Assembly: GCA_025526935.1 (NCBI GenBank)
Contig: JAHLKD010000021.1
Span: 372,001-436,000, forward strand
DNA from: Cladochytrium replicatum
Taxonomy: Eukaryota; Chytridiomycota; Chytridiomycetes; Cladochytriales; Cladochytriaceae
Direction of reading: 5' to 3'
DNA: 64,000 nt
Shown: positions 909 through 59,136 of the stretch, in pieces
Layout: every line of letters begins with the position of its first letter
How positions within the stretch are numbered: position 1 is the first letter of the stretch
The notes under the pieces: generated by a model
Seen by the model: only the letters and a program-made list of their open reading frames with translations
Database searches by the model: none
Told to the model about the DNA's origin: nothing
Translations under genes and position numbers: made by a program

Positions 909-1739
909 ATGCACCAGTACGGCAAACCTATTCGATCGCATGAAACCAGGGAGTCCTCTCGATTCGGTGGACGGCCGATTGGTGGGACCAAATCCTCCGG
1001 AAGTCAGGCTTACGGTGACTCCTCTAGTGAAGGAGGGGGAGCTCATGACGGCAAAGCACCGTCGGGAACTACGGATGCGAAAGGATCGTATCTGCCGACT
1101 CAACGTGGCCAACGCAAAACAGAGCAACCATTTGCGAGCTCTTTTCAAGGATCAGAGAATGTACTCACACAGGGGCTATCGCGGTCGGGGTCTCTTCTCA
1201 GTTCGACTTCGGGGGATGCAGCAGCTTCTGCTCTTGGCGGAACGGGAAGCGAAATAGCGTCTAACGTACCGGCTTCCAGTAGCCTTCACGAAGCGAATCA
1301 AAATTCATCTGCAGTTACACCACAATCGGCCTCCCTTGCATCCCCAAATGTCTACCATCAAGTCGTGGGAAAGGCACCATCGTCCATGCACGCCATGATG
1401 GAGAACATCGTTGGAACTATGGAGGTAAATAGAATAGTCGAAGAACCTTTGGAATTGCTTAAATTTTCCGATTAGGCTGGAATGGGCAAAGTATTTGCGA
1501 GTCCTGGGATGCGAACCAAGGGTGAAGGAAAGAAAGTGCTGGCAGAAGCTGAACGAGTGGCTGCGAATCTTGACTCCAAGATGCACCATAACGAAAGTAC
1601 TCCGGCTGGGGATGAAGGGCAGCATGGCGTGCATCCACCAAGGCTCGGAGGAGGACCCCACGCTAAGGTGAATATCGGTGCGAGGGAAACAACCCCTACC
1701 ATGACTCCATCAAGAGAAACAACCGGTAGTGGTTTGTAA
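909..1739 (+). CDS. Ser/Gly-rich low-complexity protein of unknown function
   Basis: Two exons, 909-1424 and 1476-1739, join in phase 0 across a 51-bp intron with a GTAAAT donor and TTAG acceptor and give 259 residues. Residues 1-160 are rich in Ser, Gly, Ala, Gln and probably disordered. A more ordered patch at about 163-200 (ENIVGTME then GKVFASPGMRTKGEGKK) resembles loosely the Gly/Lys pattern of small CsbD-like stress proteins, but this is weak and I give no function. A TATA box 39 bp upstream supports this start over the longer overlapping frame beginning at 517, which has no splice or composition support. The downstream 1740-2404 interval holds no gene I can support. Confidence 0.6.
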
Positions 1740-54226: not shown

Positions 54227-57084
54227 TCACAGTTCATCATGGAGATGGCTATCTTTCTCATCATCCTCATCAACTTCTTCAGCCTCACTGGTCTTCGACT
54301 CTCCCTCCGCATCTTTCTCAGGGGCCGGCTTCAGATCGACTTCAGCAGACGTCTCCAGATCAACCCCAAGCACACGTCGCACAACAGTTTCGACACGAGC
54401 TGCGAACCTGTCAAGGTCGTTCACATTGAAACCAGAGCGAAGAAGCGTTGTCTCGTAAAGAACTTGGACCGCTTCTTTCACAGCCGGGTTCTCCCCCTCT
54501 TCGTTTTGTATCTTGTTAAGCAAGCTTTCAATCAAGGGATGGTTCTTGGAAAATAATGAGTATTAAGTACGAGCAGCAAAATTTACAGCTCGAGTACTCA
54601 CCGGGTTGATTTCAATGATCTTCTTCATAGACGCGTAGTAACGGAGCATCGCGTCATCCCCACGGAAAGCTTGCGCCTGCATGATACGTTCCATGTTGCC
54701 AGTGTACGCAAAGTCCTTTGCAACGATCGCAGCGGGAGACTTTGTCAGACGGTTAGAAACCTTCACCTCTTCAACGAACTCGGAGAGCGTCGTCTTGATG
54801 TACTCAGAGAGCGGCTTGTACGTTTCCGTAAGCTTTTCAACCGATTTGCTGCTTTCCTCATCTTAATGGGACAAAAAGAGTAACAAAGACGTTCTCGTGC
54901 ACATATGCTGTGAACACACCTTCATCACCATACTTCAGGCCACTCTTGGCGGCGGACTGGAGCGGGAAGTTCTCATATGTAGTCAGCCTCTGAATCAGGT
55001 ATTCATCGATGGGGTCAGGCATGTACTACACAAGAAGTTAGAGCAGACCAAAGAGAGCGACAAAGTCAAACGTACAAGGACCTCGTATCCACGTCCGATC
55101 AGGGTTTCAACGAACGGACTTCTTTCAATCTCTTCAACAGATGAGCCCGTCAGATAGTAGATTTGAGGTTGACCCTTCTTCATGCGGCTGATATAACCAT
55201 CCAAGCTTGTGATGTTTTCGCCTTTCATTTTGCTCGATTGGAATCGAAGAAGCTTCGACAACTTTTTCTTGTTTTTGGCATCTTCCAGAACACCAAACTT
55301 CAATGCAGTGCCGAACTCCTTGATGAACCTCTTGTATTTCTCTTCGTCCGCCGAGAGGCTCTTGACCATTTCGAGAGCTTTCTGGATCACCTTCTTCTTG
55401 ATGGTCTTCAGGAGGCTGTGTTGCTGCAACGTTTCACGCGACACGTTGAGCGGTAGATCGTCGCTATCTACTAGACCTTTCAAAAAGCCGAGGTACTTTG
55501 GCAAAAAATCGATGAGCTCGTCGGTGATGAAAACACGCTTAACGAAGAGCTTGATACTACGGAGAGCCGAATCGACTGTGTTCATCCAGTTCGGAGGTGA
55601 GCGGGCTAAAAAAAAGAGATCAGCACAAGCCAAGAAATTGCAGCAAATGCACGTACATGGAATGTACAGTACACCGCGGAAGTCAAGGTCGCCTTCGGCA
55701 CGGAAATGAATCCAGGTGAGAGGGTCATCGAAGTCCTTTGTGAAACCACGGTAGAAATCTTTGTACTCGGTTTCGGAGACATCTTTCGGGTTGCGAGTCC
55801 AAAGTGGCCGACGCCCATTCATAAGTTCCCACTCGTGAACTGTTTTCGTAATTGTCTTAGTCTTCGGCTTCTCGGGTTTCTCTTCTTCGACGTCTTCCAC
55901 CTCCAAGTCGTCTTTCTTTTCGTCTTCCTCCTTCTTCGCGTCCTCGTCAGGCACTTCTTCAGTCTTCGTCTTGGTCCTCCACAAGTAGATCTCGAAGTTG
56001 ATGAATTCGGAGTCTGAAAGAGTTGTCAGTAACCGAAGAAAGATTTGATGAGGATGCATACACTTCTTAATCAGAGTCTCCAAGGTCGAGTCCTCGAGGT
56101 AGGTGACTGCATCTTCTTTCAGATGAAGCGTGATTTCGGTACCGCGTCCCAGAGTGTTTCCTCTCGGATCTTCGTAAATGGTGAAGTCTGCCAAATTATC
56201 AGATTAGAGGTTGCTTGTTCCAACGGAATACATCAAGCATACCACTCTCAGATTCTGCTTGCCAGATGTGCTGCTTATCGTTGTTGTTCTTGCTCACAAC
56301 GGTAACCTTGTCAGCGACTAAGAAGACGGAATAGAAGCCAACACCGAATTGGCCGATCAATCCCTACATCCGGATGAACAAGAGTTTTCATGTAGTGCAT
56401 GTTGAACGAACCATATCCGCTGTCTTGTTCTCCAAAGCCTTGATAAATTCACCGGTCCCGGACTGAGCAATATTTTATATCAGCCAAAATGTCGAGAAAT
56501 GCATAAAACGACTCACCTTGGCGAGAGTTCCAAGGTTCTTCTGAAGTTCCGCCTTAGTCATACCAACACCAGCATCCCGAATTGTGAGAGTTTTGCGGGT
56601 AGGATCAGCGACAACACTAATCTTCAGATCTGGGTTTCCTTTCAGAGCTTCCTTGTCTGTCAAAGACATGAATCGAATTTTGTCCAGTGCATCCGAAGCA
56701 TTCTAGATGGACAAGAGTCAAATGAGTTTCGATTGAGCATTTTCAATAACATACTGAAATCAGCTCTCTAAGGAAGATCTCTTTGCTCTTGTACAGACTT
56801 CGGACAATAATGCTCATCATTTTGTTGACTTCGGCTTGGAACTCGAACTTCTGACCAGACCTTTGTGCTTTGCCCAAATCTTCGTCAGTTAATGGCTTCA
56901 CGTCTTCGGGCAACACTTTGCTGGATGATGATTGAACTTCCACAGTAATGGGCCTTGTTCCACCGTCGCTTTGATCGTTGAAAACAGCATCCTCCTCAGT
57001 AGATGCGGAAACGGACGAAAACAGGAGTGCGAGCAAGAAGAAGGCAAGGAGCCCGAACAGTAAGATTCGAGCAGGTTTCCTCAT
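54227..57084 (-). CDS. HSP90B1: ER-resident Hsp90 (GRP94/endoplasmin)
   Basis: Ten exons (57084-56755, 56702-56517, 56462-56412, 56363-56243, 56187-56062, 56013-55657, 55605-55076, 55025-54920, 54861-54602, 54544-54227) give 794 residues. GRP94 folds secreted and membrane proteins in the ER lumen. A signal peptide ([19 protein letters not shown]) and the C-terminal HDEL retention signal fix the location. Hsp90 signatures: [82 protein letters not shown] and [13 protein letters not shown]-type text near the end. A charged linker ([17 protein letters not shown]) separates the N and middle domains. Most model fungi lack this paralogue, so it supports an early-diverging lineage. Confidence 0.96.
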
Positions 57085-57379
57085 TGTGGTCAGCAGTCGT
57101 ACACGAAGCGGATTCTGGTAGAAGGTAATTCAGTGATGTGAACCGTGAACATAGAAGATCGCACTCACGTTGCAGTAGCTGAATAGATGTTACCACAGGG
57201 ACACAGCTTGATTTATGTGAAGTGTATTTTACCAAATCGGGTAAGTTCGTGGAAATGGGAGGAAGCAGTCAGCCACATCACATCGCCACGCTCTGCTGGG
57301 CAATTCTCATTTGCTGGCACCAAAGCCAGGCCCGATCTGATCACAATCATGTGTGTCTACGCTGAAAACTCGTAGTCTT

Positions 57380-59136
57380 TTAGGCTTCTTTGGCACATTT
57401 GTAAACTCTCCCCATCCATTGGAACAACCCGGTATCCCTCGGGAAATCCAGTCCACGGCGATCACGTCCTTTCAAGGCGCTATAAAACTCTTCGGAATCC
57501 AAATGGCCATCCTTGCTGGTATCAAACATGTGGAACAAAAGGTCAACCTGGCCCGGTGTCAGCTCAACCTTGGTAACTGCTCGCACGATTCTCGCGAAAT
57601 CAGCGCGATTGAAACCAGGATGCCGGGTGGTACTTTTGTAGATCCGATATGCCATTTCAATGTCTTTCAATCTGGTGTGGACCATTCTGTCAAAATCTGT
57701 GAGGGACGAAGTGTTCAGTATGACGATAAATAAAGATCACTGCATTACCATAGAACTGAGCGAAAGAGATCCGCTCGCCCTCATCCGCGTATGTTGAGAT
57801 GGCCCTCACGTATGTAGGCACCTCATCTTCCCTTGCATAGCTAATTACCGCAAAGCCAAAGTCGCGAAGCGATATTGTCTCTTTGTCGTCGACGCCATAC
57901 TGATAGAAGTAAGGACGGAAAGTTAGGTTAAGGTTCCCCAAAGCTCGTTTTATCATCACAGCGACGACTAAAGGTCTGGGTGGATATCTCAAGTTTCAGA
58001 ACTTCAAGTTGGAGCCGGTGCATGAAATCGGTGAACTGCTCCTGGGTGATTGTTTGTTTTCCGTCAGCCCCAAAAAATAGTCTGAACAATCCCGTTTCGC
58101 CTGGCTTATACTTGTGCTCCCTTGGCCTGCGACACTCAGCTCAACGCCAGGTTCTCCACGAACTTATCAATTCAATTACCCTTCCCTGCCTCCGATTCCA
58201 AGAGATTGAGTATTCGTTGCCATGATCCGTTCAAACTCTTCTTTCGAAATGAGACCGTCACCGTTTACGTCAAATAGCTTGAAACTGACTTTCCACTGGT
58301 ACTCCGGTGTCCCAAGTAGAGTCAGAAATATGAGATACTCGCTGTACGAGATCAATCCATCTGAGAAAACATAAGAACCAGAAAGCTATTAATGCACAAA
58401 AACTCACCTCCATCCATGTCTGCAAGACTGAAGAATTGTTCGGCAGACGCAACTCTTTTCGTGCGACTGCCCTAAATTTATTAGTCAGCGCAACTATTAT
58501 AAACTTTAATACCCCACTCCTCAAAATACCTGAAGATGCTCTCGATAAGGAATCAATGAGCGAATAAAGTCTTGGGCAGTCATGTAGCGGATGCCATCTT
58601 TTTTCTCCATGCAAAACAGTATTCAGCGAAGAGAGAAACAGGTATCGAATATAAACACACCACCGAGGCAAAATGCTGTTGATGTGGCCAGTTAAGCAGA
58701 GCGAGAAGCAATCATTATAGATTTACCTGAAACAATTTGTAAGGGTGCGAAAAATACCTCAGCTTGTTTTCGTAATTTCCAACTGCTTTCTTCTTCCAGG
58801 CAGACTAATACAGGGTCCGCCAATTGCATGATTTATCATGAAGACTACGTACATCAGGAGTGTCGCAATGAACAGTTGACGTGAGTGTCTCCTCAGAGTC
58901 GACAGGAATAGTATTCCAAATGAAGGTAGCCACAGCAGCCCCTGCTGCTACTGTCGACATAATGAGCTTCGAAGAAACGTTGCTTTGTCTTGCCGAAACC
59001 CGACTGGAAAGGTGCAATGACCTATTGTTGCGAAAATCAGCGAAGAAACATCAATAATCCACGCCTCCTACCTTGCAAAAAGCGGTGATCTCGTTTTCAG
59101 AATCGCCCGTCTCCACAAACCTTGAAGTGTGTGCAT
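57380..59136 (-). CDS. MICU1: mitochondrial calcium uptake regulator MICU1-like
   Basis: Ten exons (59136-59072, 59021-58853, 58804-58727, 58675-58661, 58604-58530, 58471-58408, 58360-58180, 58126-57988, 57908-57749, 57696-57380) give 420 residues. MICU proteins gate the MCU calcium channel in the intermembrane space. The N-terminus is Arg/Ser-rich (LWRRAILKTRSPLFARS), a presequence, followed by a hydrophobic segment (STVAAGAAVATFIW). EF-hand loops are DMDGDGLISYSE (about 151), DVNGDGLISKEE (about 186) and DTSKDGHLDSEE near the end. YENKLRYFSHPYKLFQ, YMTAQDFIRSLIP and RLQLEVLKLEF are family-typical. Intron 57909-57987 has AT-AC ends and is described separately. A 15-bp micro-exon encodes HFASV. 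Confidence 0.92.
57909..57987 (-). other. probable U12-type AT-AC intron in MICU1
   Basis: Read on the minus strand the intron starts ATATCCACCC and ends CCGTCCTTAC, with CCTTAAC 19 nt before the end. These match the minor-spliceosome 5' site (ATATCCTT) and branch-site core (CCTTAAC). Removing exactly these 79 nt joins EVLKLE to FYQYGVDD, giving the LKLEF text expected for MICU1. No GT-AG pair nearby keeps the frame and this text: donors after CTTTA are in the wrong phase, and GTTCTG would delete VLKLEF. Confidence 0.75.

Follow-up and report, generated by a model that had tools for sequence, protein, structure and literature searches.

Does a MICU1 gene of the chytrid Cladochytrium replicatum (Cladochytriales, Chytridiomycota) contain a U12-type AT-AC intron, and, if it does, what kind of minor spliceosome would remove it? 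The question was raised by a stretch of 64,000 nt (the window, G000:C21:372001-436000; window coordinates below are all on its minus strand) from a genome of 50.5 Mb in 198 contigs, in which the original prediction had placed such an intron. We find that the intron is real and U12-type and that, as an intron, it is one more case among known ones. Its interesting part is a departure from the motif RTATCCTT at positions +7 and +8 of the 5′ splice site, and the U6atac small nuclear RNA (snRNA) gene of the same genome is altered at the two letters that face these positions.

The MICU1 gene, which codes for a mitochondrial calcium sensor, was assembled by hand from the minus-strand reading and has a complete coding region of ten exons and 420 amino acids (57380..59136), in agreement with structure matches and a public protein. 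Eight of its nine introns are GT-AG and 47-58 nt long; intron 8 (57909..57987, phase 0) alone is AT-AC and 79 nt in length. From 57987 to 57909 it reads ATATCCACC ... CCTTAAC ... GTCCTTAC. Exon 8 (57988..58126) ends in LQLEVLKLE and exon 9 (57749..57908) begins with FYQYGVDDKE, so that excision yields LKLE^FYQYG, with the junction inside the conserved LKLEF. The spliced protein aligns through the "vlklef" of MICU1 (Calcium uptake protein 1, PDB 6xqn; E 8.6e-48) and also matches PDB chain 9k6m (E 6e-62); 9k6m and MICU1 chains such as 6xqn are its closest solved structures, and the MICU1 alignment covers residues 79-419. A Pfam scan of the spliced fragment around the junction gave no match at E 0.01, and the gene name therefore rests on the PDB structure and public-protein matches. 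In a public protein search, the C. replicatum protein BJ742DRAFT_802349 (P0001) was identical to the spliced product (100% over 420 amino acids), and a second public copy (P0002, 89% identical) carries the same LKLEFYQYG text. Both public models thus match spliced products, which means that the depositors' gene models also excise the AT-AC intron in both copies.

The signals of the intron were read directly and are kept in its paralogue. The branch core CCTTAAC (57927..57933, branch A at 57928) lies 19 nt before the 3′ end, and in U12 AT-AC introns this core usually lies roughly 10-20 nt away. The 3′ splice site is CTTAC (57909..57913), with the YAC end of U12 AT-AC introns. The 5′ splice site, ATATCCAC (57980..57987), begins ATATCC, and its +4..+8 letters, UCCAC, are complementary to the tract GUGGA of U6atac. 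The prediction of a U12-type intron in a fungal MICU1 gene, with the excision that produces LKLEF, was borne out by the public protein, the PDB matches and the paralogue, and the predicted branch distance agrees with the sequence as read. Its statement that all three known U12 AT-AC signals are present holds for the branch and the 3′ site; at the 5′ site AC stands at +7/+8 (GC in the paralogue), where the RTATCCTT given in the available part of PMC2846911 has TT, and this site fits the organism's own U6atac instead. In every sequence feature except +7/+8, this is a U12 intron. A scan of the window at Rfam gathering scores returned no match. The gene adjoining MICU1 (about 54995-57085) was named by eye from its translation as an endoplasmin/GRP94-like Hsp90 gene.

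Comparison of paralogous copies indicates which letters of the intron are kept. The second MICU1 copy, on contig C16 (L003), has 78% DNA identity to the window copy over the gene. Its intron is 62 nt long (ATATCCGCA...TCCTTAAC...CTTAC) and retains ATATCC, CCTTAAC and CTTAC, and the interior is identical in 16 of 38 columns and gapped in 10. A pair of ChAPs genes (L007 and L032) behaves likewise (ATATCCACG versus ATATCCATG; interior identical in 16 of 30). At +7/+8 the MICU1 copies have AC and GC and the ChAPs copies AC and AT; within each pair the letters that differ can still pair with U6atac, via G-U pairs. A search of 20 kb on contig C21, placed by guessed synteny, found no paralogue of the L011 intron or of the L023 intron. 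The two gene pairs stand at 77-79% DNA identity over loci of about 3 kb. These pairs, and the presence of a further copy each of U11 and U6atac, suggest that duplication on a large scale has taken place in this genome.

A genome search for U6atac, in which 46 of 1956 candidates were scored, returned a single match over the Rfam cut-off (34.4 bits versus 33), on contig C48 (L004, 1501-1623, minus strand). The gene is preceded by TATAAAA at -31 and terminates in a T-run. In an ungapped alignment its recognition stretch reads AGUGGAGAGA where the Rfam consensus has AAAGGAGAGA, giving GUGGA in place of AAGGA. When GGA is set against UCC of the intron, both changed letters fall opposite +7 and +8.

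The same intron signals were then sought throughout the genome. The pattern ATATCCN{40,70}TCCTTAAC gave 27 matches, against 2 in a reversed control; at +7/+8 these had AC (8), TT (7), TC and AT (3 each), AA (2) and AG, CC, GG and TG (1 each). With +7/+8 fixed as RC (ATATCCRCN{38,68}CCTTAAC), 14 matches were found versus 2 in the control. The strict GT form of the ATATCC pattern gave 6 versus 4, no clear excess, and none of the six was convincing by eye. Together, the two AT searches identified 33 distinct places, of which 13 were accepted on protein evidence or paralogy. Two more (L008 and L026) matched nothing in Pfam or the PDB and count as weak, and the other 18 were left aside because they looked like coding sequence or chance matches or could not be decided. 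Six of these 18 had been scanned with Pfam (L005, L017, L021, L024, L025 and L033) and twelve were judged by eye only (L013, L014, L016, L022, L027, L029, L030, L031, L034, L035, L036 and L037); L024, with a weak Vac_ImportDeg match (E 0.027), could be a real minor intron.

In addition to MICU1 and its paralogue, the accepted introns lie in genes for exportin-5, ChAPs and its paralogue, Glyco_transf_22, LRR, YL1, CLP1_N and kinesin, where the junction is spanned by a Pfam match or accepted by paralogy, and for SETD3, the CSTF64 RRM and an inositol phosphate kinase, where PDB chains span it. At L019 and L023 the spanning PDB chains are unaccompanied by a Pfam match across the junction; at L028 the acceptor is ambiguous, the Pfam IPK match lies downstream and the spanning is by PDB chains such as 5w2g. 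Public models use the AT-AC junction in all four genes checked (MICU1 twice, CLP1 and CSTF2). The CSTF2 intron (L023) has a branch-to-acceptor distance of 26 nt, which exceeds the usual range; its junction is nevertheless used by public model P0082. Three of the 13 introns are in phase 0, six in phase 1 and four in phase 2.

Across the 13 accepted introns, +7/+8 is AC in six, GC in two, AT and AG in one each and TT in three; A or G thus stands at +7 in 10 of 13, fitting a GUGGA:UCCAC pairing. Among the ten that came from the search with +7/+8 left free, the letters are AC (5), TT (3), AG (1) and AT (1), and five AC in ten has P 2e-4 against an expectation of 1/16. Duplex energies point the same way (best duplex with register free; the figures for TT include the weak L026). 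Against the U6atac stretch of this genome, the ten non-TT sites gave -4.3 to -7.8 kcal/mol and the TT sites -3.1; against the consensus stretch, the values were -3.3 or -3.4 for non-TT sites and -5.1 to -5.5 for TT.

The remaining minor snRNAs were found with varying certainty. U4atac, on contig C34, has an Sm-like CAAUUUUUGG in its alignment and pairs with U6atac in stem II at -26.9 kcal/mol (none of 500 shuffles was as good) and in stem I at -14.1 kcal/mol (7 of 500). A first genome search for U11 at E 0.001 returned nothing. At a looser threshold, at which 3 of 14 control genomes also matched, U11 was found on contig C24 (28.5 bits, E 0.067), and a scan of its own locus raised the match to 36.0 bits (E 7e-4), with GGUAUGGCAAUCAAGA and AGCAUAAUUUUUG present. 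The 5′ end differs by scan: the locus scan begins at GUCAAGGGCU, whereas the genome scan puts the start at UGGGCUGGG, 141 nt further on. Of these two readings the longer, with the CAAGGG end, has the higher score and a GTATAAA box at -32; no TATA lies within 60 nt of the shorter. In the longer form U11 (L066, 1360-1617) measures 258 nt, where the model has 134 positions, and the conserved GGUAUGGCAAUCAAGA is preceded by a large insertion. A related copy on contig C25 (L067; 21.2 bits, E 3.0 genome-wide) has TCAAGGG and lacks a TATA box.

For U12, an Rfam search that scored 42 of 2023 candidates had no match. A search with GAGTAAGGAAAATAACG allowing two mismatches gave 8 matches versus 16 in the control, none of them an Rfam U12, and was rejected. 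A second pattern combined known U12 letters with the pairing to be expected; it gave 10 matches versus 7, of which one (L058, contig C13) was retained. It carries ATGAGTAAGGA, as in human U12, and 128 nt further on an Sm-like ATATTTTTGG; GTATAAA precedes it at -33, close to the -32 at which this box stands in U11, and its fold is unremarkable (z -1.0). Altered U12 stems in basal fungi are reported in the available part of a Lichtheimia paper (PMC4133162), so a failed Rfam match is not decisive, and judged by these sequence elements L058 is possibly the U12 gene. The original prediction had taken the intron to imply a retained minor spliceosome whose RNAs could be sought in the genome. Retention is upheld on the RNA side by U6atac over its cut-off, its pairing with U4atac, U11 and the U12 candidate; U6atac, U4atac and U11 were recovered, and U12 as this candidate.

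U6atac has a second unusual feature. It reads GUUGGCA where the consensus has GUUAGCA in the Rfam alignment, placing GGC at the AGC catalytic triad. Two decayed relatives of the gene were found by DNA search, L045 (5′ part only) and L046 (without the recognition stretch), neither of which matches Rfam U6atac. GGC occurs in both, and U4atac has the complementary UUGCCAAC (GCC), which makes a sequencing slip unlikely. The U12 candidate also offers GCC opposite GGC, although this is not independent, as the search pattern was chosen with that letter. In the parts of the literature available, a 2004 paper cited by PMC4081067 has a title that describes the U6 AGC triad as invariant, U6-A59C is temperature sensitive (PMC4081067), and either AGC or CGC serves in group II introns (PMC4424553). 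Beside L046 lies a U3 small nucleolar RNA-like match (1034-1277, minus strand; Plant_U3, 50.2 bits, below its cut-off of 80).

These results show that MICU1 carries a real AT-AC intron of U12 type, and we think it likely that its removal is the work of a minor spliceosome in which U6atac has come to suit the majority of the checkable introns. We infer from the agreement of letters that the changes in U6atac and at +7/+8 are causally linked, by coadaptation. In the mechanism we propose, U11/U12 would bind the branch site CCUUAAC and, weakly, the 5′ splice site, by way of ATATCC and contacts with proteins; U6atac would then displace U11, pairing GUGGA with UCCAC at +4..+8. In U6atac, AAGGA would have become GUGGA, and most of these introns would have shifted +7/+8 to match (AC, GC, AT), while a minority stayed TT, fitting a U11 that begins CAAGGG. 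If U11 does begin there, at the better-scoring of its two 5′ ends, the TT minority (3 of 13) would be accounted for: from this end U11 gives -3.8 to -5.9 kcal/mol with TT sites and -2.1 or -2.2 with non-TT sites. A fuller proposal, which we put forward tentatively and with less than even confidence, is that the minor spliceosome has been rewired and its 5′ splice-site code split: U6atac GUGGA would serve an ATATCC-R-Y majority and U11 CAAGGG a ATATCCTT minority, minor introns would be only, or nearly only, AT-AC, and the GGC triad would be working, with unbroken GGC:GCC pairing to the candidate U12.

Several observations weigh against this account. From its other end (UGGGCUGGG), U11 gives -2.3 to -3.2 kcal/mol with non-TT sites and -2.0 with TT, so that U11 would no longer explain the TT class if this later end were right. 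U11 CAAGGG pairs with AC sites by little beyond CC, and coadaptation would therefore be one-sided; an earlier idea that U11 had coevolved with AC sites was dropped because CAAGGG is the better-scoring end. Three of 13 introns, or 4 of 15 once the weak pair is counted, have TT and pair poorly with U6atac (-3.1), and the AG site of CLP1 fits neither U6atac nor U11 at +8. The +7/+8 association is modest (Fisher 0.035 for 13 introns and 0.011 for 15, with paralogues counted twice), and three of the 13 introns were found only by the search that fixed +7/+8 as RC. In addition, U4atac (42.8 bits versus 53) and U11 (36.0 versus 39) fall below their gathering scores, and L058 matches no Rfam model.

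The strongest alternative is an ordinary U12 intron with drifted 5′ sites, recognised by U11 and protein contacts of the U11-48K type, with +7/+8 nearly neutral and the U6atac change coincidental. The CAAGGG letters at the better-scoring U11 end, the three TT sites and the AG site all suit drift, as does the divergence of U6atac elsewhere along its length, visible in a score so close to the cut-off; a review, in the part available, has U11-48K recognising the first three intron nucleotides (PMC3584512). However, drift does not predict AC in five of the ten introns from the free search, nor that both paralogue pairs should differ only by letters that U6atac can pair with, nor that the two changed U6atac letters should be those facing +7/+8, and we consider it rather unlikely. 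That the C48 U6atac gene is itself a pseudogene, with a canonical U6atac missing from the assembly or left unscored, would accord with the two decayed copies, which show that the family decays, and with the small fraction of candidates scored. Yet the C48 copy has its TATA box, T-run end, score over the cut-off and U4atac pairing, and its letters are not unique to one copy, since L045 shares GAGTGGAGAG and both L045 and L046 share GGCAAGCC; we judge this very improbable. Excision by the major (U2) spliceosome has a precedent in the few AT-AC introns of other organisms that are U2-type, but ATATCC and CCTTAAC recur at similar spacing in all 13 accepted introns of a genome with minor snRNA genes, and this is extremely unlikely here. 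Finally, that the stretch is no intron at all, and that the gene has decayed, the assembly is wrong here or an exon was misjoined, as suggested by the in-frame TAA on read-through and by a length (79 nt) that is not a multiple of three and leaves the unspliced gene broken, is scarcely credible when two gene copies and both public models share the junction and the MICU1 alignment runs over residues 79-419.

Minor introns as such are published for early-diverging fungi, chytrids included; the available passages of PMC10639083 and PMC2846911 name Rhizophagus irregularis (205), Basidiobolus (249), Spizellomyces, Neocallimastigomycetes, Rhizopus and Phycomyces. This qualifies the original prediction, which set the intron against the loss of U12 introns in most fungi. 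Cladochytrium resembles these fungi in its AT-AC termini, ATATCC 5′ site, TCCTTAAC branch and minor snRNAs. However, Rhizophagus motifs are described in the same passages as closely animal- and plant-like, whereas in Cladochytrium +7/+8 is mostly AC or GC and U6atac has GUGGA. Most species are described there as having a GT-AG majority of minor introns, in contrast to the 6 matches versus 4 in our strict GT-type search. AT-AC introns are also strongly enriched in Blastocystis sp. subtype 1 (196 of 253, PMC10639083), an unrelated lineage for which the available passages mention no U6atac or +7/+8 change. The transformed minor spliceosome of Physarum polycephalum is said to have diverged motifs (Larue et al. 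2021, via the available parts of PMC10228655 and PMC10639083), and a comparable snRNA change is possible there; no intron expansion was seen in Cladochytrium.

U2-type 5′ splice sites fall into two classes, read by U5 or U6, while the U6atac/5′ site pairing of U12 introns is more invariant and two sub-classes are not apparent, according to the part of a 2025 paper available (PMC11732430). There may be two 5′ splice-site sub-classes among Cladochytrium U12 introns. As in the U2-type system, each class is complementary to a different snRNA, here U6atac or, on one reading of the 5′ end, U11. No prior account of the U6atac and +7/+8 change was recognised by title or abstract among the papers listed from the open-licence literature searched, and within that scope the splice-site code read here looks new. 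Should the GGC triad be functional, it would help to show how strict the need of the catalytic core for AGC is. The findings also suggest that software relying on TATCCTT motifs could overlook introns of this kind. The letters of an snRNA and of its introns have seemingly moved together while U11 perhaps stayed static, so that two readings of one splice site would have been separated in evolution and their relative importance could be tested.
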